From: Rhizobiaceae bacterium
GTDB lineage: Bacteria > Pseudomonadota > Alphaproteobacteria > Rhizobiales > Rhizobiaceae
Assembly (NCBI GenBank): GCA_019635715.1
Contig: JAHBYY010000007.1
Location: 30,055 to 94,054, forward strand
Direction: 5' to 3'
Length of the DNA stretch: 64,000 nucleotides
Shown here: in pieces, positions 2 to 27,624 of the stretch
Layout of the letters: each line of letters opens with the position of its first letter
Position numbering within the stretch: the first letter of the stretch is position 1
Notes under the pieces: model-generated
Database searches by the model: none
What the model saw: only the letters and a program-made list of their open reading frames with translations
What the model was told of the DNA's origin: nothing
Position numbers and translations under genes: made by a program

Positions 2-1087
2 GCGGACGCCTTCGAGCCGCTGCCGGGCGTCGGCGCACAGGAGCTCGCCGCGGCGGCGCTTCTCGCCTCGCTCTCCGACGAGACGCCGGAGGGCCGGTCG
101 ATCGTCGACTTCGCGCGCAAGCAGATCGGCCGCGGGCTCGACGCAGCGGACACGGTAGCGCAGACCATAGCGTTCTCCGCCAACACCCGCATCTCCGGCG
201 CGGACCTCGTCGACGGCACGCAACTCCGCAAGGGGGCGTCCGATTCCATCCTCGCCTGGTGCGGCGTCTCCGCCGGCAACGAGCTGCGCGCCACCGTCGA
301 GCGAATCGCGAAATCGGGCGGCACGCCGCTGCTCGTCGCCCGCGACAGGCGGGTCCTGGGCGTCGTCCATCTCAAGGACATCGTGAAGCCCGGGATTCGC
401 GAGCGGTTCGCCGAACTGCGCCGCATGGGCGTTCGCACGGTGATGATCACCGGCGACAATCCGCTCACGGCGGCGGCGATCGCCGCGGAGGCCGGCGTCG
501 ACGACTTCCTCGCCGAGGCCACGCCCGAGCGGAAGCTCGAGCTGATCCGCAAGGAACAGGCGGAGGGCAAGCTCGTCGCGATGTGCGGAGACGGCTCCAA
601 CGACGCGCCGGCGCTGGCCCAGGCCGATGTGGGCGTGGCCATGAATACCGGGACGCCGGCGGCCAAGGAGGCCGGAAACCTGATCGACCTCGACAGCGAC
701 CCGACGAAGCTCATCGAGATCGTGCTCGTCGGCAAGCAGTTGCTGATCAGCCGTGGCTCGCTGACGACGTTCTCGGTCGCCAACGACGTCGCGAAGTATT
801 TTGCGATCCTCCCGGCCTTGTTCGTGACGGCCTATCCGGCCCTGGACGCGCTCAACGTCATGCAGCTCGAAAGCCCGGGAAGCGCGATCCTGTCGGCGGT
901 GATCTTCAACGCCCTGATCATCATCGCGCTGATCCCGCTCGCGCTGCGCGGCGTGGCCTACAAGCCGGCGACCGCGGCGAGCCTGCTGCGCCGCAACCTC
1001 CTGATCTACGGCCTCGGCGGCCTGATCGTCCCCTTCGTCGGCATCAAGGCGATCGACCTGATTGTCAACGCCGCCGGCATCGTATGA
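2..1087 (+). CDS. kdpB: Potassium-transporting P-type ATPase subunit B (3' part)
   Basis: This is the C-terminal 361 residues of the catalytic subunit of the KdpFABC potassium pump; the start and the DKTGT phosphorylation site lie upstream of the window. The reading frame is open from base 2. Visible P-type ATPase landmarks are TGDNPLT and the hinge motif [10 protein letters not shown], followed by the KdpB-typical stretch around [12 protein letters not shown] and then the C-terminal membrane helices. It ends 9 bases before kdpC, as expected for one kdpABC transcript. Family identity is certain; only the truncation by the window edge limits the entry. Confidence 0.97.
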
Positions 1088-1096
1088 GGTGATCCC

Positions 1097-1687
1097 ATGT
1101 TTTCGGAAATCAGACCCGCGATCGCCATGATCGGGCTTTTCACCGCCCTGACCGGCATCGCCTACCCCCTGGCCATGACAGGCGCGGCCCAGCTCCTTTT
1201 CCCCGTGCAGGCAAATGGCAGCCTGATCGAGCGGAACGGCGTCGTCATCGGGTCGACGCTGGTCGGCCAGGCTTTCGGAGGCCCGGCCTATTTCCACGGC
1301 CGCCCCTCCGCCGCCGGCAGCGGCGGGTACGATGCGTCCTCGACCGGCGGCAGCAATCTCGGCCCCACGTCGAAGGCGCTGATCGGACGGATCACCGCCG
1401 ACGCGGCGCGCATCAGCGCCGAGAACGGCGGTGCGCGCGTGCCGGTCGACCTGGTCACCGCGTCCGGCTCCGGCCTCGATCCGCACATCTCGCCCGAGGC
1501 GGCGCTGATCCAGGTCGCGCGGGTCGCGGCCGCGCGGAGGGTCGATCCGGCAGCGGTGCGCAGCGTGCTTGACGCAACCGTCGAAGGCCGCACCTTCGGC
1601 GTGCTCGGCGAGCCGCGCGTCAACGTGCTGGCGCTGAACCTCGCGCTGGATGAGCGGTTCCCGCCGGAGGTCCGACACGACCGATGA
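1097..1687 (+). CDS. kdpC: Potassium-transporting ATPase subunit C
   Basis: A 196-residue KdpC, the usual length for the subunit that stabilises the KdpAB complex and its ATP binding at the inner membrane. One N-terminal membrane helix (about residues 7-30) is followed by a periplasmic domain with conserved blocks such as GSTLVGQAF and [18 protein letters not shown] ribosome site lies just upstream and overlaps the kdpB stop. It sits between kdpB and kdpD in the standard order. Confidence 0.97.
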
Positions 1688-1745
1688 GCCGCTTCGCTGC
1701 CATGCCCCCGCCCTCGACCCGCCGCAAAGCGGACGGCGGCCGCTG

Positions 1746-4439
1746 ATGCCTGCCGTCGACGCGCGCCCCGAGCCCGAGGCCCTTCTCGCGGAAGCGAGGA
1801 AGGAAGGGCGCGGTCGGCTGAAGATCTTCCTCGGCGCAGCTCCCGGCGTCGGAAAGACCTACGCCATGCTGGAGGCGGCGCAGCGGCGCCGGACCGACGG
1901 CGTCGACGTCGTGGTCGGGGTCGTCGAGACCCATGGCCGCAGCGAAACCGAGCGGCTTGTCGCCGGACTGGAGGTCTTGTCTCGGGCGGAGATCGCCTAT
2001 GGCGGCCGGCCGCTGGCCGAAATGCATCTCGACGGACTGCTCGCGCGCCGGCCGCGCCTTGCCCTGGTCGATGAGCTCGCCCATACGAATGTTCCCGGCA
2101 GCCGCCACGCCAAGCGCTGGCAGGACGTCGAGGAACTGCTGGACGCCGGCATCGACGTCTATTCGACGCTCAACATCCAGCATCTGGAAAGCCTCAACGA
2201 CGTCGTCGCCCGCATCGTCCGCGTCAAGGTGCGCGAGACCGTGCCCGACAAGGTGCTGGAACTCGCCGACGAGATCGAACTGATCGACCTGCCGCCGGAG
2301 GAACTGATCGAGCGGCTGCGGCAGGGCAAGATCTATGTGCCGGAGCAGATCGCGCGGGCGATCCAGAACTTTTTCGCCAAGGGCAACCTGACGGCGCTGC
2401 GCGAACTCGCCATGCGGGTCGCGGCCGACCGCGTCGACGCGCAGATGGCGGCGCATATGAAAAGCCATGCGATTCCCGGGCCGTGGCCGGCGCAGGATCG
2501 CGTGCTGGTCTGCGTCAACGAGGCGCCGGTGTCGAAGGCGCTGGTGCGGGCGGCCAAGCGCATGGCCGAGCGGTCGCGCACGGACTGGATCGCCGCCAGC
2601 GTCGCCACTCCGCAATCGGAGCATCTGCCGGACGCCGCCAAGGACGCGATCGCGGAGACCCTGCGCCTGGCCGAGGCGCTGGGCGCCGAGATCGCCACCA
2701 TCAACGCGGAAAGCCACGTCGCGGACGAGATCCTCGCCCTGGCGCGCAGCCGGAACGTCTCGCGCATCGTCATCGGCCGCCCCCGGCCGCGCCTGTTCAC
2801 CGCCCGGTTCTCGCGCGAGACGGTGGCCGAGGAACTCATCCGCAAGGCCGGGGATTTCGAGGTGACGATCGTCTCCGCCGATCCCGGCGAGGCCCGCAAG
2901 GCCGCCATCCGTGGTGCCGTCCTCGTCCCGGAGCGCGACCCGAAGGCCTATCTCTGGACGGCCGCCACGGTCGCCGCCGCGACGGCCGTCGCGATTTTCG
3001 TCAACCGCGTGTTTCCGGTCGAGAGCCTGTCGCTGTTCTTTCTCGTCGCGGTGCTGGGCGTCGCCGCACGGTTCGGCCTGTGGCCCTCGATCTTCGCCAG
3101 CGGCCTCGCCTTCCTCAGCTACAACTTCTTCCTGACCGAGCCGTTCTTCAGCTTCGAGATCGCCAACCAGGATCTGGTGCTGACGCTTTTCCTGTTCCTC
3201 CTCGTGGCGATCGTCACCGGCAACCTCGCGGCACGGCTGCGCGATCAGGCGCGTGCGCAGCGCGCCATCGCGAAACGCACGGCAAACCTCTTCGACTTCT
3301 CCCGCAAGGTCGCCAGCGTCGCCTCGCTGGACGATGTCGTGTGGGCGGCCGTCACCCATGTCGCCTCCACCATGCAGTGTTCCTCGATGATCCTGATGCC
3401 GGACACATCCGGGCAACTCGTCATCGTCGGCGGCATGCCGCCCGAGGACCATCTGGAGCCGCGCGACCGCGGCGCCGCCGAATGGGCCTGGGAGAAGCGC
3501 GAGCCGGCCGGCTGGTCGTCGCCGACCCTGCCGTCGGCGACCTGGCTGTTTCTGCCGATGAAGAGCGCCGACCGGATCCACGGGCTGCTCGGCGTCCAGT
3601 TCGGCACCCGCCAGTACATTACGACGGAGGAGCGCCGCCTGCTCGATTCGCTGGTGGACCAGGTCGGTCTGGCGATCGAGCGGACAAAGCTCGCTTCCGA
3701 CATGGAGCAGTCCCGTCTGCTGGCCGAGACCGAAAGCCTGCGCGCGGCCCTGCTGTCGTCGGTCAGCCACGATCTCAGGACGCCGCTGGTCTCGATCATC
3801 GGCGCGGCGACGTCGCTGGTCGATGCGGACGAGGCGCTGGGCAGGTCCGGCCGGCAGGCCATGGCCGAGACCATCCGCGACGAGGGGGAGCGTCTCAACC
3901 GCTACGTCCAGAACCTTCTCGACATGACGCGGCTCGGCTACGGTGCGCTCAAGCTGGCCCGCCAGCCGGTCGACCTGCGCGAGGTGGTGGGGCGCGCCCT
4001 GCGGCGCCTGGAACGCGACCTCGCCGGTCACCGCATCGTGCGCGACCTGCCGGCGGGTCTTCCGGAAATGTCCGGGGATGCGGTGCTTCTGGAGCAGGTG
4101 GTGACGAATATCCTCGACAACGCCGCGAAATACGCCCCGGCCGGCTCGCAGGTCACGCTCTCAGCAGAAGCGGCCGGCGAGCATCTGACGCTGGCGATCG
4201 CCGACCAGGGGCCGGGCATACCGGAAGGCGACCGCGGCCATGTGTTCGACATGTTCTTCCGGGTCCGCGCCGGTGACGGCCGGCCCGGCGGCACGGGCCT
4301 CGGACTCGCCATCGCCAAGGGGATCGTCGACGCGCATGGCGGATCGATCCGCGCGGAGGCCGCAATGGCGGACGGCACCGGCACGCGGATCGTGCTGACC
4401 CTGCCGACCGGTGCGGGAACCTCCGGAGGCCCGGCATGA
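1746..4439 (+). CDS. kdpD: Osmosensitive K+ channel sensor histidine kinase
   Basis: Membrane sensor kinase that controls kdp expression in response to potassium limitation. I chose the ATG at 1746 (897 residues), because the family normally begins a few residues before the sentence-like block EALLAEA; an upstream in-frame ATG at 1650 would run back into kdpC. Order of domains: N-terminal KdpD sensor domain with Walker A GAAPGVGKT (residues 30-38), a Usp domain (about 250-375), four membrane helices of the DUF4118 type (about 390-500), a GAF region, then HisKA with the phospho-acceptor His675 in SSVSHDLRTPL, and HATPase with DNAAKYAP, DQGPGIP and GTGLGLAIAKG. It overlaps kdpE by four bases. 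Confidence 0.95.
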   Translation: MPAVDARPEPEALLAEARKEGRGRLKIFLGAAPGVGKTYAMLEAAQRRRTDGVDVVVGVVETHGRSETERLVAGLEVLSRAEIAYGGRPLAEMHLDGLLARRPRLALVDELAHTNVPGSRHAKRWQDVEELLDAGIDVYSTLNIQHLESLNDVVARIVRVKVRETVPDKVLELADEIELIDLPPEELIERLRQGKIYVPEQIARAIQNFFAKGNLTALRELAMRVAADRVDAQMAAHMKSHAIPGPWPAQDRVLVCVNEAPVSKALVRAAKRMAERSRTDWIAASVATPQSEHLPDAAKDAIAETLRLAEALGAEIATINAESHVADEILALARSRNVSRIVIGRPRPRLFTARFSRETVAEELIRKAGDFEVTIVSADPGEARKAAIRGAVLVPERDPKAYLWTAATVAAATAVAIFVNRVFPVESLSLFFLVAVLGVAARFGLWPSIFASGLAFLSYNFFLTEPFFSFEIANQDLVLTLFLFLLVAIVTGNLAARLRDQARAQRAIAKRTANLFDFSRKVASVASLDDVVWAAVTHVASTMQCSSMILMPDTSGQLVIVGGMPPEDHLEPRDRGAAEWAWEKREPAGWSSPTLPSATWLFLPMKSADRIHGLLGVQFGTRQYITTEERRLLDSLVDQVGLAIERTKLASDMEQSRLLAETESLRAALLSSVSHDLRTPLVSIIGAATSLVDADEALGRSGRQAMAETIRDEGERLNRYVQNLLDMTRLGYGALKLARQPVDLREVVGRALRRLERDLAGHRIVRDLPAGLPEMSGDAVLLEQVVTNILDNAAKYAPAGSQVTLSAEAAGEHLTLAIADQGPGIPEGDRGHVFDMFFRVRAGDGRPGGTGLGLAIAKGIVDAHGGSIRAEAAMADGTGTRIVLTLPTGAGTSGGPA

Positions 4440-5119
4440 TGACCGGACGGATCCTCCTGATCGAAGACGACCCGGGCATCCGGAAATTCCTGCGCGTCGC
4501 GCTCGAAGCGCAGGGGCTGGTTCTTGAAGAGGAAGCTTCGGGCAGGAGCGGCATCGCCCGCGCCGCGACCGCGCAGCCCGACCTCGTCATCCTCGACCTC
4601 GGCCTGCCGGACATGGACGGCAAGGCGGTCATCGCCCGCATCCGCGAATGGTCGGAGGTGCCGATCCTGATCCTGTCGGTGCGCCAGGCCGAGGAGGAAA
4701 AGGTAGCCGCGCTCGACGCCGGCGCCAACGACTACGTCGTCAAGCCCTTCGGCATCGCCGAACTGATGGCCCGCGTCAGGGCGCTGCTGCGGTCGGGCGG
4801 GCCGGGCACTTCGCCCGAGGCCGAGATCGTCCGCGGAGACCTTCGCGTCGATCTGGCCCGCCACGAGGTCGTGCTCGCCGGCGAGCCGATCAGGCTGACC
4901 CGCAAGGAGTTCGACCTGCTCGCGCTGCTCGCCCGCAATGCCGGCCGCATCGTCACCCACCGGCAGTTGCTTGCCGATGTCTGGGGCCCGGCCCATGAGC
5001 ACGATCTGCAGTATCTGCGGGTGTTCATCGGCCGCCTGCGCGCCAAGCTGGGCGACGATCCGTCCGTGCCGCGGTTCATCCTCAACGAGCCCGGCGTGGG
5101 CTACAGGTTCCTGGGGTGA
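4436..5119 (+). CDS. kdpE: OmpR-type response regulator of the kdp operon
   Basis: A 227-residue response regulator that binds the kdp promoter after phosphorylation by KdpD. Receiver landmarks are the acidic pair D11/D12, phospho-acceptor D54 in LVILDLGLPDMDG, S81 and K103 in VVKPFG; the C-terminal half is an OmpR-type winged helix. Its ATG overlaps the kdpD stop (ATGA), so translation is probably coupled. Two adjacent ATGs (4436, 4439) make the exact start uncertain by one residue. Confidence 0.96.
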   Translation: MMTGRILLIEDDPGIRKFLRVALEAQGLVLEEEASGRSGIARAATAQPDLVILDLGLPDMDGKAVIARIREWSEVPILILSVRQAEEEKVAALDAGANDYVVKPFGIAELMARVRALLRSGGPGTSPEAEIVRGDLRVDLARHEVVLAGEPIRLTRKEFDLLALLARNAGRIVTHRQLLADVWGPAHEHDLQYLRVFIGRLRAKLGDDPSVPRFILNEPGVGYRFLG

Positions 5120-5237: not shown

Positions 5238-6539
5238 CTATTGGTGGAAGAAGGCGAATTTCACGACGAACAACAGTGCAATGATCCACGTCGCGGCATG
5301 GACTTCCTTGGCACGGCCGGTGGTGAGCATAAGTACCGCGTAGGAGATGAAGCCGAATGCGAGGCCGTTTGCGATCGAATAGGTGAAAGGCATCGCCAGT
5401 GCCGTCAGGGCAGCGGACGCTGCGACGGGCGTGTCCGACCACTCGACCTCGGTCAGCTCGCGCATCATCAAGGTTGCGACGAAGAGCAGCGCAGGCGCGG
5501 TGGCGCAGGCAGGCACGGCGCCGGCCAGCGGCGAAAAGAAGGTGGCCAGCAGGAACAGCGCGGCGATGACCAGCGCGGTCAGCCCGGTGCGGCCGCCGGC
5601 CTGGACGCCCGACGCGCTCTCGACATAGGCGGTGGTCGACGAGGTGCCGAGCATCGAGCCCGCGAGAATTGCGCTGCTGTCGGCCATCAGCGCGCGGCCA
5701 AGCCCGACATTGGTGTGCGTCGGACCTTCGGTCAGCAGGCCGGCGCGCTTGGCAACGCCGATCAGTGTGCCGGTCGCATCGAATACCTCGACCAGGACCA
5801 TGACCAGGATGACCTGGATGATGCCGTGATTGAGAGCGCCCATGATGTCCAGTTGCAGGAAGGTCGGCGCGATGGACGGCGGGGCCGAGACAATGCCGCT
5901 GAACGTCGCGTCGCCGGTGAACATGGCCAGGATCGTGACGACCAGAATACCGATCAGGATCGCGCCCTTGACCCTGAGCGTGTCCAGGGTCGCGATCAGC
6001 AGGAAGCCGAAGATGGCGAGCAGCGTGGCGCTCGTCGTCATATCGCCGAGGCCGACCAGCGTGGCCGGATTGTCCACAACGATGCCGGCGCTCTTGAGCG
6101 CGATGATCGCCAGGAACATGCCGATGCCGGCGGCGATGGCGCTGCGCATCGAGACGGGAATGCCCGCCACCAGCCATCGCCGTACCCCCGTGACGGTGAG
6201 GAGCAGGAAGATGACGCCGGAGATGAATACGGCGCCCAAGGCCTGCTGCCAGGTGAAACCGAGCGCTGCGACGACCGTGAAGGCGAAGAACGCGTTGAGC
6301 CCCATTCCCGGCGCCATGCCGATCGGCCAGTTCGCCCACAGCGCCATGATCGCCGAGCCGAGCGCGGCGGCAAGGCAGGTCGCGACGAACACGGCGTTCC
6401 TGTCCATGCCGGTGCTCGACAGGATGTCGGGGTTGACGAAGATGATATAGGCCATGGTCAGGAAGGTCGTCAGTCCCGCGACGAGCTCGGTGCGGACGTT
6501 CGTTCCCATTTCCGACAGCTTGAAGAATCGTTCCAGCAT
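5238..6539 (-). CDS. NCS2 family nucleobase permease (AzgA-like)
   Basis: A 433-residue inner-membrane protein with about a dozen hydrophobic helices. N-terminal landmarks LTTFLTMAYIIFVNPDIL and the block GMAPGMGLNAFF place it in the AzgA branch of NCS2 (COG2252), which imports adenine, guanine or hypoxanthine by proton symport. The ATG at 6539 has a strong AAGGAGGAG site. It converges with kdpE and is followed by the bhc genes on the same strand, but an 88-base gap separates it from bhcD. The exact purine is not visible from sequence. Confidence 0.9.
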   Translation of the reverse strand: MLERFFKLSEMGTNVRTELVAGLTTFLTMAYIIFVNPDILSSTGMDRNAVFVATCLAAALGSAIMALWANWPIGMAPGMGLNAFFAFTVVAALGFTWQQALGAVFISGVIFLLLTVTGVRRWLVAGIPVSMRSAIAAGIGMFLAIIALKSAGIVVDNPATLVGLGDMTTSATLLAIFGFLLIATLDTLRVKGAILIGILVVTILAMFTGDATFSGIVSAPPSIAPTFLQLDIMGALNHGIIQVILVMVLVEVFDATGTLIGVAKRAGLLTEGPTHTNVGLGRALMADSSAILAGSMLGTSSTTAYVESASGVQAGGRTGLTALVIAALFLLATFFSPLAGAVPACATAPALLFVATLMMRELTEVEWSDTPVAASAALTALAMPFTYSIANGLAFGFISYAVLMLTTGRAKEVHAATWIIALLFVVKFAFFHQ

Positions 6540-6627: not shown

Positions 6628-7593
6628 TTAGATTTCCACCTCTTGCGCTAGGCCCCGGGCCTTTGCGGCCTCGACCGCCGCGGCCGCGACCGCGAGATCC
6701 TGCAGGCCGACGCCCGTTCCGTCGAAAAGCGTAATGTCCTCCGGGGCCAATCGGCCCTTGGCCAGTCCGGCAATCACCGCGCCGATCGGCGTGATGTCGG
6801 CGGCGTCGATCAGGCCCTGAGCGACCGCATGCTGCGCCTCGCCGATGGTCACGGACTGCCCGACTTCGTCAGTGAAGACGCGGGCGCGTTTGAGCAGCGC
6901 GGCATCCACTTCCTGCTTGCCCTTCGTGTCGGTGCCCATGCAGGCCAGGTGCGTGCCGGGACGGACAAAATCGGCCATGACGAGCGGAGCGAAGCTCGAT
7001 GTGATGGTGATGATCACATCCGCCTGCGCCCCGAGTTCGGGCAGCGTCACCGCCTCGAACGGCAGGCCGAGCCCGGCCGCGGTCTCGGCGAGGCGCGGCA
7101 GCATCTCCGGGTGGAGGTTCCAGCCGACGATCCTGTCGAATGTCCTCACCCGCGCCGCGGCGCGCAACTGGAACGCCGACTGGTGCCCCGCTCCGACCAT
7201 GCCGAGAACCCGCGCGTCGGGCCGGGCCAGATGCTGGATGGAAACGGCTGAGGCTGCCGCGGTGCGCAGCGCCGTCAGCAGATTGCCGCCGACGGCGGCC
7301 GTGGCGCGGCCGGTATCGGGATCGAACAGGAAGACAGTCGACTGGTGGTTGGTCAGCCCCTTCGCCATATTGCCCGGCCAATAGCCACCGGACTTCAGTC
7401 CGAGCACCAGACCTGCCCGGTCAAATCCGGACTTGAAGCCGTAGATCGCGTCGGCATGGTCCAGCCCCTCGCGGATGACCGCGAAGTTGCGTGCCTCGCC
7501 GCGCGCCATGGCGGCGAACACGTTCTCGATGGCTGCAAAGACCGCAGCTTCGGTCAACAGGCCGGCGATCGCCTTTTCCGGTACGACGAGCAT
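6628..7593 (-). CDS. bhcD: Iminosuccinate reductase of the beta-hydroxyaspartate cycle
   Basis: A 321-residue ornithine-cyclodeaminase/mu-crystallin family protein. In the beta-hydroxyaspartate cycle BhcD reduces iminosuccinate to L-aspartate with NAD(P)H, regenerating the amino donor. It matches the Paracoccus BhcD pattern as I remember it, including INHQSTVFLFDPDTGR-like and GAGHQSAFQ blocks and the end AQEVEI; the Rossmann glycines are in GMVGAGHQS. The ATG at 7593 was chosen because it has a GGAG site and gives the family N-terminus MLVV; an upstream GTG (7665) would add 24 unconserved residues. Last gene of the bhcABCD run. Confidence 0.93.
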   Translation of the reverse strand: MLVVPEKAIAGLLTEAAVFAAIENVFAAMARGEARNFAVIREGLDHADAIYGFKSGFDRAGLVLGLKSGGYWPGNMAKGLTNHQSTVFLFDPDTGRATAAVGGNLLTALRTAAASAVSIQHLARPDARVLGMVGAGHQSAFQLRAAARVRTFDRIVGWNLHPEMLPRLAETAAGLGLPFEAVTLPELGAQADVIITITSSFAPLVMADFVRPGTHLACMGTDTKGKQEVDAALLKRARVFTDEVGQSVTIGEAQHAVAQGLIDAADITPIGAVIAGLAKGRLAPEDITLFDGTGVGLQDLAVAAAAVEAAKARGLAQEVEI

Positions 7594-7668
7594 GGGACGG
7601 AACTCCGATGCGGGAATGCCTGGGTGAGGTTGGGGCCGCGCCGGCGGTGCGGCCGGCGATGTCACCGG

Positions 7669-8832
7669 TCAATAGGCCTTGCCGCGCGCCGACACGGGCC
7701 AGACGGTCTCGACCTTGCCGTCGCGGACGCCCACATACCAATCGTGGACATTGCAGGTCGGATCGCAGTGACCCGGCACGAGGCGCAGCTTTTCATTCAC
7801 CTTGAGGGCGCCATCGGGGTCGTCGATGACGCCGTGTTCGTCGCTGCACTTGACGTATTTCACGTCGTCGCGGCCGTAGACGAACGGCAGTCCGCTATCG
7901 ACCGATTGGGCCTTCAGGCCAGCGTCGCAGACGGCGCGGTCGGACGTCGGGTGGCTCATGATGCTGGTCAGGATGAACAGCGCGTTCTCCCATTCGCCCT
8001 TGTCGATGCGCTGGCCGCTCGCATCGAGGATGCGGCCATAGTCCGCGTCCATGAAGGCGTAGGAGCCGCATTGCAGCTCGTTGAAGACGCCCGAGGCGGA
8101 TTCGAAATAATAGGAGCCCGTCCCACCACCCGAGACGAGTTCCGGCTCCAGGCCAACGGCCTTGAGGCCGGCGACCGCGTCCTTCACCATGGCGATCGCC
8201 ACGTCGAGCTTTTCCTTGCGGGCATCGTAGCGGTCGATGTGCTGCATTGCGCCCTGATAGGCCTGGAGGCCGGTGAACTTGAGATTTGGCGCGGCGTCGA
8301 CGGCCTTGGCGATGTCGACCACGGCGGCCGTGGTCGTAACGCCACAACGGCCTGCGCCGCAGTCGATCTCGACGAACACCTCCAGCGTCGTGCCATGCTT
8401 TTGGGCTGCCGCCGACAGGTCGGCAACATTGGCGAGGTCATCAACGCATACGATGATCCGCGCGCCGGACTTCGGCAGTCGTGCGAGCCGATCGATCTTT
8501 ACCGGATCGCGCACCTGATTTGAAACCAGCACGTCCTTGATGCCGCCGCGCACGAACACTTCGGCCTCGCTGACCTTCTGGCAGCAGACGCCGGCCGCGC
8601 CGCCGAGACTTTCCTGCAGCTTCTGGACGTCGACCGATTTGTGCATCTTGCCGTGGCTGCGATGGCGCATGCCATGCGCCTTCGCGTAGTCGCCCATCTT
8701 CTTGATGTTGCGCTCAAGCGCGTCGAGATCGAGGATCAGGCAGGGTGTCTGGATGTCCTGTTCCAGCATGCCCGGAACAGCGGGGACGTCGAAGCCGACG
8801 TCGAGCTTGTCGAAAGATGTCACTGCGTTCAC
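7669..8832 (-). CDS. bhcC: beta-Hydroxyaspartate aldolase
   Basis: A 387-residue PLP enzyme of the D-threonine aldolase-like/alanine racemase fold. BhcC condenses glycine with a second glyoxylate to (2R,3S)-beta-hydroxyaspartate. Probable Schiff-base lysine is K62 in RSHGKMHKS; the C-terminal GHCDPTC holds the His-x-Asp metal pair of this family, and the protein ends in ARGKAY. The start is a GTG at 8832 with a GAGGAG site that overlaps the bhcB stop codon; a TTG at 8847 is in frame but would lack that site. Spacing of 11 bases to bhcB implies one operon. Confidence 0.94.
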   Translation of the reverse strand: MNAVTSFDKLDVGFDVPAVPGMLEQDIQTPCLILDLDALERNIKKMGDYAKAHGMRHRSHGKMHKSVDVQKLQESLGGAAGVCCQKVSEAEVFVRGGIKDVLVSNQVRDPVKIDRLARLPKSGARIIVCVDDLANVADLSAAAQKHGTTLEVFVEIDCGAGRCGVTTTAAVVDIAKAVDAAPNLKFTGLQAYQGAMQHIDRYDARKEKLDVAIAMVKDAVAGLKAVGLEPELVSGGGTGSYYFESASGVFNELQCGSYAFMDADYGRILDASGQRIDKGEWENALFILTSIMSHPTSDRAVCDAGLKAQSVDSGLPFVYGRDDVKYVKCSDEHGVIDDPDGALKVNEKLRLVPGHCDPTCNVHDWYVGVRDGKVETVWPVSARGKAY

Positions 8833-8843
8833 GATTGGACTCC

Positions 8844-9791
8844 TCAATTCCAGGGCAGCTTGTCGAGGTCGACATTGCCGCCGGTGACGACGACGCCGAC
8901 GCGCCTGCCGGCGAAGATGGCGGGGTTTTTCAGGATTGTGGCGAGCGGCACGGCGCTCGACGGTTCCATGACGATCTTCATACGTTTCCAGATCAGCTTC
9001 ATCGCATCAATGATCTCCTGTTCCGATGCGGTCAGGATATCGGCGACGTGGTTGCTGACGAAGTGCCAGGTCAGTTCCTTCAGCGGCACCTTCAGCCCAT
9101 CGGCAACCGTATCCGGAGCGTCATCGGCAATGATGTGGCCGGCCTTGAAGCTGCGACAGGCATCGTCGGCCTGCTCGGGCTCCGCCGCGAAGATCTTGAT
9201 GCCAGGGGCCAGATTGGACAACGTCAGGCAGGTCCCCGACACCATGCCGCCGCCGCCGATCGGCGCGACCATGGTGTCCAGATCGTCGACCTGTTCGATC
9301 AGTTCGGCCGAACAGGTCGCCTGACCGGCGATGACGCGCGGGTCGTTGTAGGGATGCACGAACTCGGCGCCGGTTTCGGCGACGACCTCGGCAAACACCG
9401 CCTCACGCGACGACGTCGACGGTTCGCACTCGACCACGCGCCCGCCATAGCCCTTCACGGCGTCCTTCTTGGCCTGTGGCGCGGTGCGCGGCATGACGAC
9501 GGTGCAGGGCACGCCACGGCGGCCGGCAGCATAGGAAAGGCAGGTGCCGTGATTGCCCGACGAGTGCGTCGCGACGCCCTTTTCCGCCTGCTTGTCACTG
9601 AGGCCAAACACCGCATTGGAAGCGCCACGCGCCTTGAAGGCGCCCGCCTTCTGCAGATTCTCGCATTTGAAGAACAGCTCGGCCCCGGCAAGCCCGTTGA
9701 TGAAGCTCGATGTCAGGACAGGCGTGCGATGAACGTGCGGTGCGATCCGCTGGCGTGCCGCAAGCATGTCGTCCAGAGTTGGGATGTACAT
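8844..9791 (-). CDS. bhcB: beta-Hydroxyaspartate dehydratase
   Basis: A 315-residue PLP enzyme of the serine/threonine dehydratase (fold type II) family. In this cluster it is BhcB, which removes water from beta-hydroxyaspartate to give iminosuccinate. K53 in KAGAFKARGA is the PLP lysine, SSGNHG the substrate loop and PIGGGGMVSG the phosphate-binding glycine loop. On its own it could be called threonine dehydratase or serine racemase; the ordered neighbours bhcA, bhcC and bhcD decide the function. It starts 15 bases after the bhcA stop. Confidence 0.93.
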   Translation of the reverse strand: MYIPTLDDMLAARQRIAPHVHRTPVLTSSFINGLAGAELFFKCENLQKAGAFKARGASNAVFGLSDKQAEKGVATHSSGNHGTCLSYAAGRRGVPCTVVMPRTAPQAKKDAVKGYGGRVVECEPSTSSREAVFAEVVAETGAEFVHPYNDPRVIAGQATCSAELIEQVDDLDTMVAPIGGGGMVSGTCLTLSNLAPGIKIFAAEPEQADDACRSFKAGHIIADDAPDTVADGLKVPLKELTWHFVSNHVADILTASEQEIIDAMKLIWKRMKIVMEPSSAVPLATILKNPAIFAGRRVGVVVTGGNVDLDKLPWN

Positions 9792-9806
9792 GATGACGCC
9801 TCGTTC

Positions 9807-10997
9807 CTACGCCGCCGCCTTCAGCCGTGCAGCGGTCGTCGACCGATAGAACTCCTGTGCGGCGGCGACGCCGGAACCGAGGCGAACCGGCAGGCCGAGA
9901 TCGGCCATGGCCATCTCGGCGGTGGCAATTCCCGACAGCGCCAGAACATCGCTCAGGCAGCCGAGATGGCCGATGCGGAACACCTTGCCCTCAACTTCGC
10001 CGAGACCGACGCCAAAGGCGACGTCATAGACTTCAGCCGCATGGGAGACGAGCTTCGTCGCGTTGAAACCATCCGGCGTGCGGATGGCGCTGACCGTATC
10101 GGACTGAACCGACGGGCTTGCAGCACACAATTCCATGCCCCAGGCCGAAACGGCGGCCCGGATGCCATCGGCGATGCGGCGGTGGCGAGCGAAGACATTC
10201 TCCAGGCCTTCGGCCAGCAACAGTTCGGTCGACACCTTCAATCCGTTCAGCAGGCCGACGGCCGGCGTATAGGGATAGGCATTGTTCTGATAGCTGCGGC
10301 CCATGTCGCGAACATCAAAGAAGGTGCGCGGCAGCTTCGCCATATCGAGCGCCGCCATGGCCCGTGGCGAGAACCCGACGATGGCGAGGCCGGTCGGCAG
10401 CATAAAGCCCTTCTGCGATCCGGTGACGGCAATGTCGACGCCCCATTCATCCATGCGGAAGTCCATGCAGGCGATCGAACTGACACCGTCGACATAGAGC
10501 AGCGCAGGATGGCTGGCCGCGTCGATGGCGCGGCGAACCGCGCCGATGTCGGACCGCACGCCGGTGGCGGTCTCATTGTGCGTCGCGAGCACGACCTTGA
10601 TCCGATGCGCCCTGTCGGCGGCGAGAACTTCCTCGAACCTGTCGGCGGGGATGCCTTCGCCCCAGGGCGTTTCAACGACGATGACCTCGAGGCCATGGCG
10701 CGTGCACATGTCGATCCAGCGATGGCTGAACATGCCGTTGCGTGCTGCGAGGACCTTGTCGCCCGGCGACAGCGTGTTGGTGATCGCGGTTTCCCAGCCG
10801 CCGGTGCCGGTGGACGGAAACACGAAGATCTCCGCGCTCCTGCTTTTCAGGACGCGCTTCACGCCGCCCAATGCCGGTTGCAGAATCTCGCGGAAGAGCG
10901 ACGAGCGGTGATCGAGGGTCGGCATGTCGACAGCCCTGCGCAGCGACTCCGGCAGGTTGGTCGGTCCAGGTATGAAAACCGGGTTCTGGCAGCGCAT
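9807..10997 (-). CDS. bhcA: L-aspartate-glyoxylate aminotransferase
   Basis: A 396-residue class V aminotransferase. BhcA moves the amino group of L-aspartate to glyoxylate, giving glycine and oxaloacetate, the first step and the output step of the cycle. The PLP lysine is K196 in VTGSQKGF; FIPGPTNLPE near the N-terminus and PSTGTGGWE are family landmarks. The ATG at 10997 has an excellent GGAGGAG site; a longer frame to 11054 would run into the regulatory region. It is the first gene of bhcABCD and is divergent from bhcR. Confidence 0.94.
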   Translation of the reverse strand: MRCQNPVFIPGPTNLPESLRRAVDMPTLDHRSSLFREILQPALGGVKRVLKSRSAEIFVFPSTGTGGWETAITNTLSPGDKVLAARNGMFSHRWIDMCTRHGLEVIVVETPWGEGIPADRFEEVLAADRAHRIKVVLATHNETATGVRSDIGAVRRAIDAASHPALLYVDGVSSIACMDFRMDEWGVDIAVTGSQKGFMLPTGLAIVGFSPRAMAALDMAKLPRTFFDVRDMGRSYQNNAYPYTPAVGLLNGLKVSTELLLAEGLENVFARHRRIADGIRAAVSAWGMELCAASPSVQSDTVSAIRTPDGFNATKLVSHAAEVYDVAFGVGLGEVEGKVFRIGHLGCLSDVLALSGIATAEMAMADLGLPVRLGSGVAAAQEFYRSTTAARLKAAA

Positions 10998-11190
10998 ATC
11001 CGCTCTCCTCCTCGAAACTGACGCCAGCCTACTCACCGGCGAAAAGGGTTGCAATTTTTTTGAAAAAATCTTCCGACCAATAGAAAAATCGCAATTGTCG
11101 TATGATTTTCAATGGCGTATGATTTTTCAGCACTCGGAATCCATTGTTTCGGTTGTCTAGAAACTGTCTCTCCGTTTGCATCGAAAGCGC
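10998..11190. promoter_or_regulatory. Divergent bhcA/bhcR control region
   Basis: A 193-base AT-rich stretch between the divergent starts of bhcA and bhcR. It holds four copies of a GAAAAATC-type word: GAAAAAATC (11062-11070), GAAAAATC (11083-11090) and, inverted, GATTTTC (11104-11110) and GATTTTTC (11121-11128). They nest almost symmetrically around CAATTG (11092-11097). CGTATGATTTT also occurs twice as a direct repeat (11099 and 11116, 17 bases apart). IclR regulators bind as dimers or tetramers, so this is the best candidate BhcR operator. No convincing -35/-10 pair could be assigned. Confidence 0.65.
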
Positions 11191-12003
11191 ATGGCCTCAG
11201 CACATCGACCGCGCGGTCGCCCACGGAATGCGGCGGGTTCGTCCGCGAACACCATCCAGGCGCTCGACAGGGCGCTCGATGTGCTGAACCTGCTAGCGTC
11301 TGCCGCGGGGCTGACGCTGACCGAGATATGCAACCGCCTGTCGCAGTCGCCCGCGACGATGCATCGCGTTCTCGCCTCGCTCGAATCCCGGCGCATGGTG
11401 GAAATCGATCCGACCACCCAGACCTGGCACATAGGTTCCGGGGCGTTTGGCGTCGGATCGGCATTTCTTCGGCGGACCAATCTGATCGATCGCGCAAGAC
11501 CGGTCATGCATCGGATGATGGAGGCGACAGGTGAAACCTGCAATCTGGGGATCGAGCGGGATGGAGCCGTGGTCTTCATCAGCCAGGTCGAGACGCATCA
11601 ATCGATCCGGGCTTTCTTCCCGCCCGGGACCCGGTCACACATCCACGCATCCGGGATCGGCAAGGCGATATTGGCGAACCTGCGCTCGGACCAGCTCGAC
11701 CGCATGCTGGCCCGGGTTCAGTTCAAGGTCTTTACGCCGCATACGCTTGTCGACGCGGGCAGCCTCCGACGCGAACTGGACCTTACCCGCATGCGCGGAT
11801 TTGCGGTCGATGACCAGGAGCACACATTGGGCATGCGCTGCGTCGCGGCGGCTATCCGCAACCACCATGGAGAGGCCTTCGCGGGAATATCGGTTTCCGG
11901 ACCCGTGCAAAGGATGGACGGAGAGCGATTGTCGGCCATCGGCGTCGAAGTGGCCCGATCGGCCAAGGAGCTTTCCCGCATGCTCGGCGGCGATGCGATC
12001 TGA
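11191..12003 (+). CDS. bhcR: IclR-family regulator of the bhc genes
   Basis: A 270-residue IclR-type regulator: N-terminal winged helix (about residues 25-85, with LTLTEICNRLSQSPATMHRV) and C-terminal effector domain with blocks GIGKAILA and GMRCVAAAI. Its place divergent from bhcA is that of BhcR in Paracoccus, where it binds the bhc promoter and senses glyoxylate (established there, inferred here). The ATG at 11191 was preferred to an in-frame TTG at 11176. No strong ribosome site is visible. Confidence 0.9.
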   Translation: MASAHRPRGRPRNAAGSSANTIQALDRALDVLNLLASAAGLTLTEICNRLSQSPATMHRVLASLESRRMVEIDPTTQTWHIGSGAFGVGSAFLRRTNLIDRARPVMHRMMEATGETCNLGIERDGAVVFISQVETHQSIRAFFPPGTRSHIHASGIGKAILANLRSDQLDRMLARVQFKVFTPHTLVDAGSLRRELDLTRMRGFAVDDQEHTLGMRCVAAAIRNHHGEAFAGISVSGPVQRMDGERLSAIGVEVARSAKELSRMLGGDAI

Positions 12004-15555: not shown

Positions 15556-16542
15556 TCAGGCGTGGCGGCTGCGACCGATATAGATGGCGAGCAAGATGAT
15601 GGCCCCCTTGATGACGCCCTGCACATAGGGATCGACGCCCATCAGGTTTAACCCGTTGTTCAGGATGCCCAGGAGGATCACGCCGATCAGTGTCCCTATG
15701 ATCGAGCCGCGTCCGCCCATGATGGAAGTGCCGCCCAGCACCACGGCAGCGATCGCGTCGAGTTCGAAGCCTACCCCAGCGCTGGGCTGGCCGCTCATCA
15801 GGCGCGATGTCATGACGACGGCGGCGACCGCCGTGGTCAGCCCGGAGATTGCGTAGACGAACAGCTTGACGCGATCGACCTTGACGCCGCTGAGGCGGGT
15901 CGCCCGCTCGTTCCCGCCGATCGCGTAGACATGGCGTCCAAACGAGGTGCGCTCGAGCACCACCCAGGCCAGAAGATAGACGGCCAGCATGATCAGGACG
16001 GGAACGGGGATGCCGACGATGCGGCCGCTGCCGAACCAGGACATCCAACCAGGCAGGCCCGAAATCGGATAGCCTCCCGAATACATAAGCGCGAAGCCGC
16101 GCGCCATGCCCATTGTCGCCAGCGTTACGATGATGGGCGGCATGCCGCCAAAGGCCACCAGCGCCCCGTTCAGGACGCCGAAGCCAACGCCGACGCCGAG
16201 TCCGGCCAATAGCGCGAGCGCGGGATCGAGCCCCCCGACCATGAGCCCGGCCATGATGGTGCCGGTGAGTGCCACCACCGAGCCCACCGAAAGATCAATG
16301 CCGCCCGTCAGGATCACGCAGGTCATGCCGATGGCGATGATGCCGATGATCGACACCTGTCGCATGACGTTCATCAGATTGGAGAATTGGAGAAAATTGT
16401 CCGAGGCCAGGCTCATCAGCACGCTGATGGCCACGAGCCCGAGCAGCGGCAAGGCCAGATCGGATTGCCGCAGGCGGGTCCACAGGCGGAAGGTGAATTG
16501 CTCCCCGACACGCTCCGGTGAAGCGTTTTCAGTGGATGGCAT
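15556..16542 (-). CDS. Ribose-type ABC transporter permease
   Basis: A 328-residue RbsC-like inner-membrane permease with about eight to ten hydrophobic helices. The conserved EAA-like region [15 protein letters not shown] and the C-terminal [14 protein letters not shown] are characteristic of carbohydrate (CUT2) importers. It overlaps the ATPase gene by 14 bases, implying coupled translation. It forms the channel of the importer encoded at 15556-19106. Confidence 0.92.
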
Positions 16543-18094
16543 CAGACCCTCCCGCGGTTGCGTGCTTCATCACCTCCTGGGCAGTAACGTCCTCTCCCGC
16601 CAAGGTTTTCACGATACGGCCCGCCCGGAACACACAAACGCGGTCGGACATGCCGACCACCTCCGGCAATTCGGACGATATCATGATGATCGAGACCCCC
16701 CGCCTCGTGAGGTCGCGCATCAAGTGGTAGATTTCGACCTTGGCGCCGACATCGATCCCACGCGTCGGTTCGTCGAAGATCAGGATGTCGACATCGTGGT
16801 TGAGCCAGCGGGCAATCACCACCTTCTGTTGGTTTCCCCCCGACAATTCCTCCAGCCGCGTCTCGGGGCCTGGCGCCTTGACACGCACCATCGCCATTGC
16901 CGCGCCTACATCCGCGCTCTCGCGTTTGCCGTCGATGAAGAAGCCAAGCTTGCGATATTTGCCGTAGTTGTTGAGGGAAATGTTGTGGCGAACAGAGAAG
17001 GGCACGATGAGCCCTTCGTCCTTGCGGTTCTCGGGCAACAGGCCGATGCCGCTTGCTAGTGCGTCGGCGGCGTTGGCAAGGCTACGCTGCGTTCCATGCA
17101 GTTCCACACGACGCGAGGCCGCGTCGAATTCTCCAAGCAGCGCAAGCGCCATCTCCGTGCGCCCTGAGCCGACAAGGCCGGCGAATCCCAAGATCTCGCC
17201 GCGCCGCAACTCGAACTCGCTCGGCGGCATGTTCTTGTGCAAGCGCATTTCCCGTGCGCGAAGCACCACCTGCGCCGTGTCATCCGGATCCGGCTTGTCC
17301 GGGAAGCCCGCTTCAATCCGCCGCCCCACCATCATCAGCACCAATCGGTCGATATCGGTCTCAGCGACGGACGTGGTGTCGACGTAGTGTCCGTCGCGCA
17401 GCACCGTAATGCGGTCACAGATCTCGAAGATCTCGTCGAGGTGATGCGAAATGAAGACGATGGCGACACCCTCGGCGCGGAGTTGGCGCATCACGACAAA
17501 GAGATGCTCCACTTCCACGGGGGTTAATGTGGCGGTCGGCTCGTCGAGGACGAGGATGCGCGCGTCGAGTGCGAGCGCCTTGGCAATCTCAACGAATTGT
17601 TGCTGCGCGACACTCAGCTTGTGGATCGGCATGTCGAGGTCGATCTGGATGCCGAGACGACCGAGAAGCTCTCGCGTGCGGGTGCGCATCGCGGTTCGAT
17701 CCAGAAGGCCGAAGCGGTTGTGCTTCTCGCGCCCGAGAAAAACGTTCTCGACGGCGTTGAGATACGGGATCAAGCTGAACTCCTGGAAGACGATCCCTAT
17801 TCCGGCCTTGACCGCGTCGTCATAGTCCATGAAGCGCCGCTGCTGTCCGTTCAGCCGCATCTCGCCCTCATCGAAGGAGAGGATGCCGCACAGAATCTTC
17901 GACAGCGTCGACTTTCCCGCGCCGTTTTCACCGAGCAGCGCATGCACCTCGCCGGCAAACAATTGCAGATCCACCCCGTGCAGCACCTGGACCGGGCCAA
18001 AGCTCTTGCGGATGCCCTTTAGCTCCAGAGCCGGCTCGCGCTCGATCGAGCGCGGCCGGCCCAAGGGGAAAGGCCGTTCTTCCTGGAGCGTCAT
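16529..18094 (-). CDS. Ribose-type ABC transporter ATP-binding protein (two ATPase domains)
   Basis: A 521-residue CUT2 ATPase with two fused ABC domains. Domain 1 has Walker [10 protein letters not shown], signature-like KLSVAQQQ and Walker [13 protein letters not shown]. Domain 2 has the usual degenerate Walker A (GLVGSGRTE), signature LSGGNQQK and Walker [13 protein letters not shown]. This asymmetry is normal for RbsA/MglA. It lies between the binding protein and the permease and follows a strong intercistronic hairpin. Confidence 0.95.
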
Positions 18095-18137
18095 GACGGC
18101 ATCTCCTTCCGTTCATGCGTATGAAAGCGCGCGGCCT

Positions 18138-18172
18138 CCCCCGCAGGAACGCCAACGGTGTTCCTGCGGGGG
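18138..18172 (-). terminator. Intercistronic hairpin between binding protein and ATPase genes
   Basis: A perfect 13-base inverted repeat (18138-18150 and 18160-18172; arms CCCCCGCAGGAAC / GTTCCTGCGGGGG) with a 9-base loop, 10 bases after the binding-protein stop in the direction of transcription. No T-run follows, so it more likely protects the upstream message or causes partial read-through, which would make the binding protein more abundant than ATPase and permease. Confidence 0.6.
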
Positions 18173-18182
18173 TTGATCACGC

Positions 18183-19106
18183 CTACCAGCTGAAATCGGC
18201 GGCGTTGGCGGCGTCCACCACCATCACATCCACGGGCACCTCGGTGGGCACCACCTTGGCACCCCAGAACTTGGCGAGCGCCATGCCAAGGCCGATGCGG
18301 ATCTGGTCGCGGGGGAACTGGGCCGTCGTTTCGATAAACGCTCCTCCGCGTTTGATCGCTTCCACCGCCTCAGGCGCACCGTCGACGGAAGTCAGCTTGA
18401 TTTCCTTGCCGGAGGCTTCGATCGCACCGAGCGCGCCCATTGCCGCGCCATCCATGACCGAGAAAATCCCTTTCAGATCAGGATGTGCCTGGATCATGTT
18501 CTCGGTGATGCTGAGCGCCGCCGCACGATCGGCCTTGGCGTTCTGGACATCGACCAGCTTCATTTCCGGATGCTCTTCGAGCGCCTTCTTGCAGCCAGCC
18601 ACCCGCTCGAGGATAGGGACGACGGCGATGCCGTCGATGATGGCAACATCGCCCTTGCCGCCCAAGGCCTCGGCAAGATATTTGCACGACTTGTAGCCGG
18701 CGTCGGTGTTCTTCGAACCGACGAAGCTGTCGACAGGGCCGGCCGCATTGGCGTCGACGGCGACGATCACGACACCTGCGCTGTGAGCGGTCTCGATGGC
18801 GGATTGAATGCCATTGGTGTCGGCCGGGTTCACCACCAGAATATTGATGCCCCTCTGCACCATGTCTTCGATATCGGAGATCTGCTTCGCGACATCCAGG
18901 CCGGCGTCGGTGATGATGAGTTCCTTGGCGCCGACGGACTTGCTCGCCTCCGTCAAAGCCTCCTGCATGCTGACGAAATAGGGATTGTTCAAGGTCTGGA
19001 ACGACATTCCAATTTTCAGACCGCCGTCCTGCGCAAAGGCGGACGACAAGGCCGCGGCCGACACGATTGTGCCGATTCCCAGAAGTTTCGCTACTTTATA
19101 CAACAT
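18183..19106 (-). CDS. Sugar-type ABC transporter substrate-binding protein
   Basis: A 307-residue periplasmic binding protein of the ribose/galactose (Peripla_BP_4) family. A signal peptide of about 25 residues ends at SAFA before QDGG. Family blocks include NPYFVSMQ near the N-terminus and a hinge region DGAAMGALGAIEASGK. The ATG at 19106 has GGGAGAGGAAA upstream. It should define the ligand of the CUT2 importer; the residues around the cleft do not let me name it. Confidence 0.93.
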   Translation of the reverse strand: MLYKVAKLLGIGTIVSAAALSSAFAQDGGLKIGMSFQTLNNPYFVSMQEALTEASKSVGAKELIITDAGLDVAKQISDIEDMVQRGINILVVNPADTNGIQSAIETAHSAGVVIVAVDANAAGPVDSFVGSKNTDAGYKSCKYLAEALGGKGDVAIIDGIAVVPILERVAGCKKALEEHPEMKLVDVQNAKADRAAALSITENMIQAHPDLKGIFSVMDGAAMGALGAIEASGKEIKLTSVDGAPEAVEAIKRGGAFIETTAQFPRDQIRIGLGMALAKFWGAKVVPTEVPVDVMVVDAANAADFSW

Positions 19107-19160
19107 TGAATTTCCTCTCCCTAGATTTGATAGTTAGTATCATCGCAAGAATAAAGTCAT

Positions 19161-20063
19161 CTATTCTTGTGATTCCAGACTTCCGACTGGAGGCTTTGCG
19201 GTCTTCTCGTCCACCCAGACCTCGCAATTCGAGTGCTCCTGCGCCAACGTGCATGGATAGAGAACCGTGGGTTCATGCATCAGCAGCACCCGCAGGGAAT
19301 GTTGCTTCCATGGACCGCCGTCGCTGATCAGCAGGAGTCGCTTGGAACTCAGGACGTCCTCCATGCCGATCGTCACCGCCATCGGCGGAATGGCCTTCGT
19401 GTCGCCACCTGAGGTCCTGTGGGCGAACGCGATCAGCGTCTCGTCGTTGAGCGCGAGGATCCTGGTCCGCGAGCGCCGCATCTCGTCGAGCGTGATGTTC
19501 CACCAGCGTGACTGCGGCGGTTCGTTGTTGGCGATGTGTCCCGAATAGCCGAAGCCCGCATAGCAAAGATCCGGCTGTCCAGCCGCGCGGATCATGTCGG
19601 AATAGGCGCTCATATTGGCCGGGGTGGGGAAGTGCAGGTTTTCCTCCAGCGGCCGCAGATCTTCGTCAATGCGCGCGAACAGGTTGCGGCGCATGAAGCC
19701 CTGGAAAGACCATTTGTGATCGAGCGGAAGCAGCCTGCATTCCCAGGTCATCCACTCGTCCATGTTGAAACAAACAACATTCCGCCAGGAGATGCGCTCG
19801 CGGTTCGTGATCTCGACAAGTTCGGCATGGTGCCTGATCGGCCCGACAGGGAGGATCAGCACAGTCCGCTCGCCCTCGGCGTTGCGACGCTTGATCAGAT
19901 CCGCAACCTCGCGCGCCAGGGCCGAGAACATCTCTGCCGCCTGGCCATAGATTCTGACGGGAAGGAAACTGTGCTGATCAAGTTCTCCCGCCGGTAGGCG
20001 CATGATCTCCTCCCAGCCGAGCCGGCCGCGAGGCGTGTCTGTTTCTTGTGCCGCAAACTGCAT
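19161..20063 (-). CDS. Glucosamine-6-phosphate isomerase/deaminase-like protein (NagB family)
   Basis: A protein of about 300 residues related to NagB/6-phosphogluconolactonase. FNMDEW corresponds to the NagB catalytic Asp region, and GFGYSGHIANNEP to the GIGxDGHIAFNEP motif of the family, with the central Asp replaced by Ser. It likely acts on a phosphorylated (amino)sugar made by the nearby kinase. I chose ATG 20063 (AAGGG upstream); in-frame ATG 20129 and GTG 20147 are alternatives. First gene of the ABC operon. Confidence 0.8.
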   Translation of the reverse strand: MQFAAQETDTPRGRLGWEEIMRLPAGELDQHSFLPVRIYGQAAEMFSALAREVADLIKRRNAEGERTVLILPVGPIRHHAELVEITNRERISWRNVVCFNMDEWMTWECRLLPLDHKWSFQGFMRRNLFARIDEDLRPLEENLHFPTPANMSAYSDMIRAAGQPDLCYAGFGYSGHIANNEPPQSRWWNITLDEMRRSRTRILALNDETLIAFAHRTSGGDTKAIPPMAVTIGMEDVLSSKRLLLISDGGPWKQHSLRVLLMHEPTVLYPCTLAQEHSNCEVWVDEKTAKPPVGSLESQE

Positions 20064-20490
20064 CCGGAAACCCTTGCCGTTGACCGCGGTGGTGTCTCCT
20101 GCGGCGCTAACAAAATGTTTATTCCACATAAAATAGTTTGTAAACACATATCTTGCTCGTCTCCAACGCGACCCGATCTCGGCACGGTTGGCCGAGATTT
20201 AGACCAGGCGGCGGCGATTTTGAGATGCTGAGGGGAATATTTTCGTAGTCAGATGTACAAACTCTGCGCTACTTCGAGTATTTTACGAGGAAATTGCCGG
20301 CTGAGCAGAGGGTCCCGAAACGTCAGCCTCGGCGGCGACAGGCTGCTGCCCTGGCATGGATGAACAGGATTCCAATCATGAAAGTGTGAAAATCACATTT
20401 TGAATAATGCGCGGCCTGATGCGCCCCGAAAAGGCCCCGCCGTCGCGGTGGGAGCTGGATTGCATTGCCGGGCAGGTGGCGACCTTCAGG
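20064..20490. promoter_or_regulatory. Operon promoter region with candidate DeoR operator
   Basis: No gene is seen in these 427 bases between the DeoR gene and the ABC operon. It contains a near-perfect 21-base palindrome at 20381-20401 (core TGTGA-AAA-TCACA) and a looser TGTTTA / TAAACA pair (20116-20121 and 20141-20146) near the operon start. The position suits an operator for the DeoR protein encoded next door. Promoter elements were not assigned. Confidence 0.45.
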
Positions 20491-21252
20491 TCAGCCGGCA
20501 ATCTCGATGCGGACACCTTCAAACATAGCCCGGTAGTTGCCGCTGGGTTCACAATCCGTAACCAGGATGTCGATCGAGCGCGGGTCCGCGATCGTCACTA
20601 GCCCCGAACGTCCGAACTTCATCCGGTCGGCGGCGAGAATGACGTTCTCTGCCCGTGAAATGACGGCCCGGCTGAAATTGGCTTCCGAAACGCGCTGCGA
20701 CATCAGCCCGTCGCGCAGATCAATCCCCGCCACCGAAAAGATCGCGTACTTGACCCGAAACTGGGAAATATAGGCGATGGCCGACTCGTCGAGCGCCGCC
20801 CCGTCGTCGGCCGTCAGCCGCCCACCTGCCATGAAGACCGCGTTGTCCGACTGAAATGCCAGGCTTCGGGCCACGTCGACCGAATTCGTGACGACCGTAA
20901 GCCGTCTGCGAACGCTCAGGGCCTGGGCTACAAAAGTTGCGGTCGTCCCGGTCTCGATGATCATGGAATCGCCGTCCTTGACGATCTCGGCGATGGCTTG
21001 ACCGATTCGCAGCTTGCCCTCGCCGTTTTCCCGGAGGCGCTCATGGAAGGGGGTGTCAAAAAATGCCGACGGCAACGCCGCGCCGCCGTGGATCTTGTTC
21101 AGGAGGCCCTTCCGCTGCAGTTCCTTGACGTCGCGCCGGATGGTTTCTCCCGAGACCTGAAGCCGCTCGGCCAGGGTGGCGATCTCGATCGACCCGTCCT
21201 TGGACACAACCTCAACGATCTGGGACTGCCTAAACGTCTTCTTCGTTTGCAC
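20491..21252 (-). CDS. DeoR/GlpR-family transcriptional regulator
   Basis: A 253-residue DeoR-type repressor. The N-terminal helix-turn-helix (about residues 8-55) includes LAERLQVSGETIRRDVKEL, typical of DeoR proteins, followed by KIHGGA and the sugar-phosphate sensing domain with the ETGTTATFVAQAL loop. DeoR proteins usually sense a phosphosugar of the pathway they control, which fits the kinase and NagB-like genes nearby. It is transcribed toward the ABC operon. Confidence 0.92.
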   Translation of the reverse strand: MQTKKTFRQSQIVEVVSKDGSIEIATLAERLQVSGETIRRDVKELQRKGLLNKIHGGAALPSAFFDTPFHERLRENGEGKLRIGQAIAEIVKDGDSMIIETGTTATFVAQALSVRRRLTVVTNSVDVARSLAFQSDNAVFMAGGRLTADDGAALDESAIAYISQFRVKYAIFSVAGIDLRDGLMSQRVSEANFSRAVISRAENVILAADRMKFGRSGLVTIADPRSIDILVTDCEPSGNYRAMFEGVRIEIAG

Positions 21253-21656
21253 GCGTCAAATCCCGCCAGGCTGCGCTCGCCAGCTCTTCCCGAAACAAGT
21301 GTTAGATGAATCGAATGGCTTTCTCCAGCCTGTCCGATCTGAACCGGAACGGGTCCACCTTCTCAAGGGTTGCATCCGCCGGCAAACTCGGGCGGTTCAC
21401 GCAAACTCCAGGTGGAGGAAAACTCAGGGGCAGGTCAGCATCGATGCATTTGGTCGCATGTTCGCCGTCGGTGGCGGCATCGTCCTCGTCGCGGGCATCC
21501 CGCTATTGCCGGGGCTCGTCGCCCGCGGCATTCTCGACCGGAGGCTTTGTGGCCAGAGGCCTTTTCCCCGCCCGCCCGCGGGCGGTATCCTGATGACCTG
21601 CGGATGGCGGTTCGTGGCCGCCGCCTTTGGCCGGCCCGCCGGTTCACACCAGTCTG
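21253..21656. other. Gap without a recognised gene
   Basis: About 404 bases between the DeoR start and the stop of the dehydrogenase gene. Several plus-strand frames are open but none has a recognisable domain, a good ribosome site or a family match I know. I see no RNA gene, strong hairpin or repeat here. Confidence 0.4.
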
Positions 21657-22553: not shown

Positions 22554-22563
22554 TGCCTGCTCC

Positions 22564-25345: not shown

Positions 25346-25357
25346 GCGTGTCGTCCG

Positions 25358-26464: not shown

Positions 26465-26543
26465 GATGTCTATTCCTCCCGTTGGTTCTGTTTCGAATCC
26501 GTTCGAGCCGCTGCGACCGCCCGGCCGCGGCGGCGTCGTTGCC

Positions 26544-27557: not shown

Positions 27558-27624
27558 GGGGAAGCTTCCCCCGGACCGCGGCGAAGCGGGCCGCGGCGCG
27601 GCGCGAGCGTCGGCCACGTCCCTG

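Follow-up and report, generated by a model that had tools for sequence, protein, structure and literature searches.

A complete bhcRABCD locus for the beta-hydroxyaspartate cycle in a Rhizobiaceae genome, and a possible link of the cycle to purine breakdown

Do five adjacent genes in a Rhizobiaceae bacterium encode the beta-hydroxyaspartate cycle, and where would the glyoxylate that feeds it come from? The genes lie in a window of 64,000 nucleotides, the whole stretch of DNA analysed here (contig C119, positions 30055-94054), which belongs to an assembly of 4.57 Mb in 151 contigs that is 85% complete. We observed five intact open reading frames at 6628-12003, with bhcD, bhcC, bhcB and bhcA on the minus strand and bhcR divergent from them. 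These and the adjoining features are as follows:

11191..12003, plus strand: bhcR, IclR-family regulator (NF045644, 389.4 bits, cut-off 350; ligand pocket 8/9)
10998..11190, no strand: bhcA-bhcR intergenic region, presumed regulatory (flanking genes divergent)
9807..10997, minus strand: bhcA, aspartate-glyoxylate aminotransferase (NF045640, 738.7 bits, cut-off 650)
8844..9791, minus strand: bhcB, beta-hydroxyaspartate dehydratase (NF045641, 602.8 bits, cut-off 550)
7669..8847, minus strand: bhcC, 3-hydroxy-D-aspartate aldolase (NF045642, 764.1 bits, cut-off 690; PDB 6qkb)
6628..7665, minus strand: bhcD, iminosuccinate reductase (NF045643, 564.7 bits, cut-off 500; PDB 6rqa)
5238..6539, minus strand: azgA-like putative purine permease, a possible fifth operon gene (Pfam Xan_ur_permease, 173.4 bits)

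The bhcA start is likely near 10997 and not at 11054, as the family profile begins at residue 20 of the longer reading frame; by the same procedure the likely starts are 11191 or 11176 for bhcR and 7665 or 7593 for bhcD. Adjoining the bhc genes, positions 383-5119 carry genes which, from their translations, we take to be the end of kdpB, kdpC, kdpD and kdpE. Further along, two sugar-type ABC transporter gene sets (15556-19106 and 25358-27617) and a DeoR regulator (20491-21252) make 15556-27617 look like a carbohydrate-use region.

In a profile search against NCBIfam, each of the five proteins exceeded the curated cut-off of the equivalog made for it, so that BhcA, BhcB, BhcC and BhcD are all present in the window with four equivalog cut-offs passed. 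The next-best NCBIfam families reached only 194 bits for BhcD, 21 for BhcC, 359 for BhcB, 174 for BhcA and 200 for BhcR. Among PDB entries, BhcD matched best the iminosuccinate reductase 6rqa (463.1 bits, next 159.2) and BhcC the D-3-hydroxyaspartate aldolase 6qkb (719.7 bits, next 325.1), while BhcB came closest to a serine racemase (6lut) and BhcA to a serine-glyoxylate aminotransferase (6pk1). The order and strands of the five genes equal those of bhcRABCD in Paracoccus denitrificans HAMBI_2443, with tblastn identities of 76% (A), 77% (B), 80% (C), 68% (D) and 56% (R). Thus the complete bhcABCD and bhcR set and the gene-by-gene match to the Paracoccus cluster, both proposed in an earlier note on this DNA, were confirmed. 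Its remark that general tools would miss the pathway was mistaken: NCBIfam models all five genes, and some plasmid annotations already use the bhcRABCD names. The locus is one more instance of a known and widespread pathway, and its five-gene kind was already known.

We then considered how far a single gene of this set is informative. In a sample of the host's order, BhcC passed its cut-off in 51 of 397 genomes, the host genome included, at 52 places; the 51 other places were all fetched, three of them repeating loci of the named set described below. Full bhcRABCD was found at 31 of these 51 places, and at 15 the fetched stretch contained BhcC but none of A, B and D (L125, L139, L141-L143, L148, L150-L154, L156, L159, L161 and L163), for which reason BhcC was rejected as a lone marker of the cycle. 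Nine of the 15 have common other neighbours, presumably genes for a dipeptide-type ABC transporter, a mannonate dehydratase and a GntR regulator. Because these nine places share non-bhc neighbours, the lone BhcC-like aldolase may serve another pathway. That the four enzymes of the window are amino-acid-catabolic paralogues merely resembling Bhc enzymes (a class V aminotransferase, threonine dehydratase, D-threonine aldolase and ornithine cyclodeaminase) is very improbable and was rejected on the five equivalog margins: those superfamilies do include all four enzymes and a single gene proves little, but here five adjacent genes each pass their own equivalog, score well above the next family, and stand in the Paracoccus order.

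The host was also called rhizobial-type by the earlier note, a fair description since the host's family group, f1, includes a genome (G023) with BhcA-D that coincide on the tree with the Rhizobium ecuadorense proteins. The window's own bhc copy may or may not be of rhizobial descent: a quick tree placed it beside a Frigidibacter/Defluviimonas group (SH-aLRT 88); constraining it with six Rhizobium-type rows lowered the log-likelihood by 66 and was not rejected (AU p 0.111).

From the identity and order of the genes, they very probably form a functional bhcABCD operon with the divergent regulator BhcR, for which we infer both enzyme activity and co-transcription. The cycle converts two glyoxylate to one oxaloacetate net, without loss of CO2. 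BhcA would transaminate glyoxylate to glycine with aspartate as donor, BhcC would condense glycine with another glyoxylate to give beta-hydroxyaspartate, BhcB would dehydrate the latter to iminosuccinate and BhcD would reduce iminosuccinate to aspartate.

The regulator was compared with the published BhcR: eight of the nine pocket residues given in Table 1 of PMC11323563 are equal, with Ser for Thr at 143, in a gapless numbering counted from one motif. A palindrome, TGAAAA-N3-TTTTCA, occurs in 22 of 96 bhc intergenic regions, against a background of any such pattern in at most one region among single-base shuffles. Its exact form is not present in the bhcA-bhcR intergenic region of the window; as a candidate BhcR operator it is a lead only.

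Glyoxylate could be derived from glycolate via GlcDEF. A check of the genome for glycolate oxidase returned glcF near the start of contig C91 (459.1 bits, cut-off 333) and a glcD piece truncated by the end of contig C149 (508.6 bits, below the cut-off of 567.9), and for glcE only a short FAD-domain match before glcF on C91. We infer that glcDEF is one operon split by the assembly. A GntR-FCD regulator, below every NCBIfam cut-off, is divergent from glcD. The corresponding check for glyoxylate carboligase gave none over the cut-off (best match 347.9 bits, required 711.2), an absence that is a weak point since the assembly is only 85% complete. On this result the glycerate pathway was rejected. 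It is improbable that glyoxylate is mainly used through malate synthase G or the glycerate pathway with bhc as a secondary route. Malate synthase G is indeed encoded on C100 (1147.9 bits, cut-off 989.15), and a reductase of the 3-hydroxyisobutyrate/6-phosphogluconate-dehydrogenase type lies at 21657-22553 of the window; however, the carboligase match falls below its cut-off, and malate synthase requires acetyl-CoA and so gives no net assimilation from glyoxylate alone. With five equivalogs, the Paracoccus order, the glycolate oxidase pieces and no carboligase over the cut-off, the reading of the locus as the beta-hydroxyaspartate cycle is supported, and the predicted gene content of the host fits glyoxylate use.

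A second supply, from purines, is suggested by the gene next to bhcD. The azgA-like permease follows bhcD after 88 bp on the same strand, has GGAGG ahead of its ATG, and is the sole match to Xan_ur_permease (PF00860) in the assembly. Its purine substrate is only presumed, because it has no NCBIfam match at E 1e-20; it might import purines together with the cycle. Contig C122 carries xdhA, uraH, a puuE-uraD fusion, ureidoglycine aminohydrolase and ureidoglycolate lyase, the last passing Pfam and subfamily cut-offs and no equivalog cut-off. The xdhB gene is in two pieces: model positions 1-218 at the start of C122, and 240-758 at the start of C8, where the match (993.3 bits) exceeds the cut-off. 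Contig C8 also has puuD, at 4384 (455.4 bits). The allantoinase of the host genome is PuuE-type; allantoinase TIGR03178 was rejected, as not one of its 14 matches, of which five were almost complete, reached the cut-off. Ureidoglycolate lyase, the last enzyme, releases glyoxylate; therefore a predicted gene set from xanthine to glyoxylate is present in the genome, as is the glycolate set, but on contigs other than that of bhc. Purines could thus be converted to glyoxylate via Xdh, PuuD, UraH, PuuE-UraD, ureidoglycine aminohydrolase and AllA.

We then examined whether purine genes accompany bhc in relatives, counting a locus as linked when it had at least two purine markers near bhc; the window has one, its azgA-like permease. 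The named set, the best 80 of at least 589 confirmed BhcC candidate loci in a genome collection, leans to close relatives, consists mostly of Rhodobacterales, and includes truncated contigs and two loci from KLH11 (L072, L073). A record, L031, titled Spirulina subsalsa (bhcB 74% and bhcC 84% identity on an 11 kb contig), is probably contamination by an alphaproteobacterium. The 12 probes were named from profile matches, except the azgA probe (similarity to the window's permease); the AllA probe passes a subfamily cut-off and no equivalog cut-off. Among these best 80 of at least 589 loci, 46 had at least one marker, 42 had at least two (41 of the 71 with all of bhcA-D), and 34 had none. In the host's order, at least two markers were found at four of 51 places (family groups f1, f42, f28 and f41), the other 47 having none, and glcD was found at three. 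Comparing 42/80 named with 4/51 order loci, with probes drawn from the named loci themselves and so favouring that set, linkage is therefore common in the named set, rich in Rhodobacterales, but uncommon in the order of the host. Controls came from the order genomes only, as stretches some 60 kb away from bhc (40 sought, 31 existed); one of the 31 had one marker and none had two.

On a BhcA-D tree of 103 rows, 87 of them labelled and the window excluded from the linked labels, linkage required at least 12 changes, versus at least 23 (mean 29.6) in 50 label shuffles: it is partly inherited and partly changed many times. One genome, G174, has two bhc loci (L120 and L123), only one of which is purine-linked.

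Individual loci differ in the genes involved. In P. denitrificans HAMBI_2443, tblastn located a pbuX-type xanthine permease about 45 bp 3′ of bhcD, followed by 8-oxoguanine deaminase, uraH and puuD, while xdh gave no match within the 31 kb stretch; in contrast, the window has an azgA-like permease after bhcD and its purine genes on other contigs. A permease within 400 bp 3′ of bhcD on the same strand was found in 16 of 115 bhcD loci, all of them Paracoccus and all pbuX-type, and the window's own order, an azgA-like gene directly 3′ of bhcD, in none of the 115. Rhizobium tropici IGFRI Rhizo-19 (L051; Rhizobiaceae in NCBI) has bhcRABCD with an azgA-like gene nearby, placed beyond bhcR on the strand opposite to bhcA-D and beside allA, puuE, uraH and xdhA; on the quick tree the window lies outside the Rhizobium group to which that strain's bhc proteins belong. 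Of 112 plasmid records with a BhcD relative, four were inspected, among them HAMBI_2443, whose stretch carries no annotation. P. ferrooxidans pFER4 shows the linkage, as P. denitrificans does: bhc is followed by a purine permease, 8-oxoguanine deaminase and uraH, and farther by xdhA, xdhB, xdhC and guaD. In Pseudosulfitobacter DSM 107133 bhcC and bhcD are separated by a gene for an NCS1 nucleobase symporter (L200:10528-11928), with xdhB, xdhC, guaD and ureidoglycine aminohydrolase upstream, and the P. marcusii plasmid bhc locus has no purine marker. A gene called cysteine desulfurase in its record (L198:17400-18647) matches the PuuD (urate oxidase type) probe at 60% identity, and its label is probably a misannotation.

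Chance, or an inherited neighbourhood with no common function, might account for the window's permease and for the purine genes near bhc in relatives, an explanation that we regard as serious if somewhat doubtful. It agrees with the clustering of linkage on the tree, with the four linked places among 51 in the host's order and with the lack of the window's exact arrangement in all 115 loci; on the other hand, none of the 31 control stretches from order genomes has two markers, the linked loci show several gene arrangements, linkage occurs in four family groups of the order and a nucleobase symporter is inserted between bhcC and bhcD in one case. Also against a purine role are the 34 marker-free loci among the best 80 of at least 589, the P. 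marcusii plasmid and the position of the window's purine degradation genes on other contigs.

Taken as a common function, the gene context suggests that the bhc pathway in many bacteria also handles glyoxylate from purine breakdown. A more specific proposal, held tentatively and as nearly evenly balanced, is that in many Alphaproteobacteria the bhc cycle would be a terminal purine (ureide) module by its operon structure and glyoxylate sensing by BhcR, keeping purine carbon as oxaloacetate; glycolate use would be only one of two roles, and the window's bhc-azgA pairing, whose purine role is deduced from this context, a reduced form. The earlier note named only glycolate, glyoxylate and C2 sources, while the context of relatives points also to purine-derived glyoxylate. 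The introduction of PMC11323563 names purines and allantoin as a glyoxylate source, and the word "xanthine" is absent from that paper. The open literature searched, which excludes the founding paper (Nature 2019), gave no account of bhc-purine linkage. The context thus offers a second role for the bhc cycle that could be tested in the organism that serves as its model, and for metagenomes it suggests caution in reading bhc genes as a sign of glycolate use alone.
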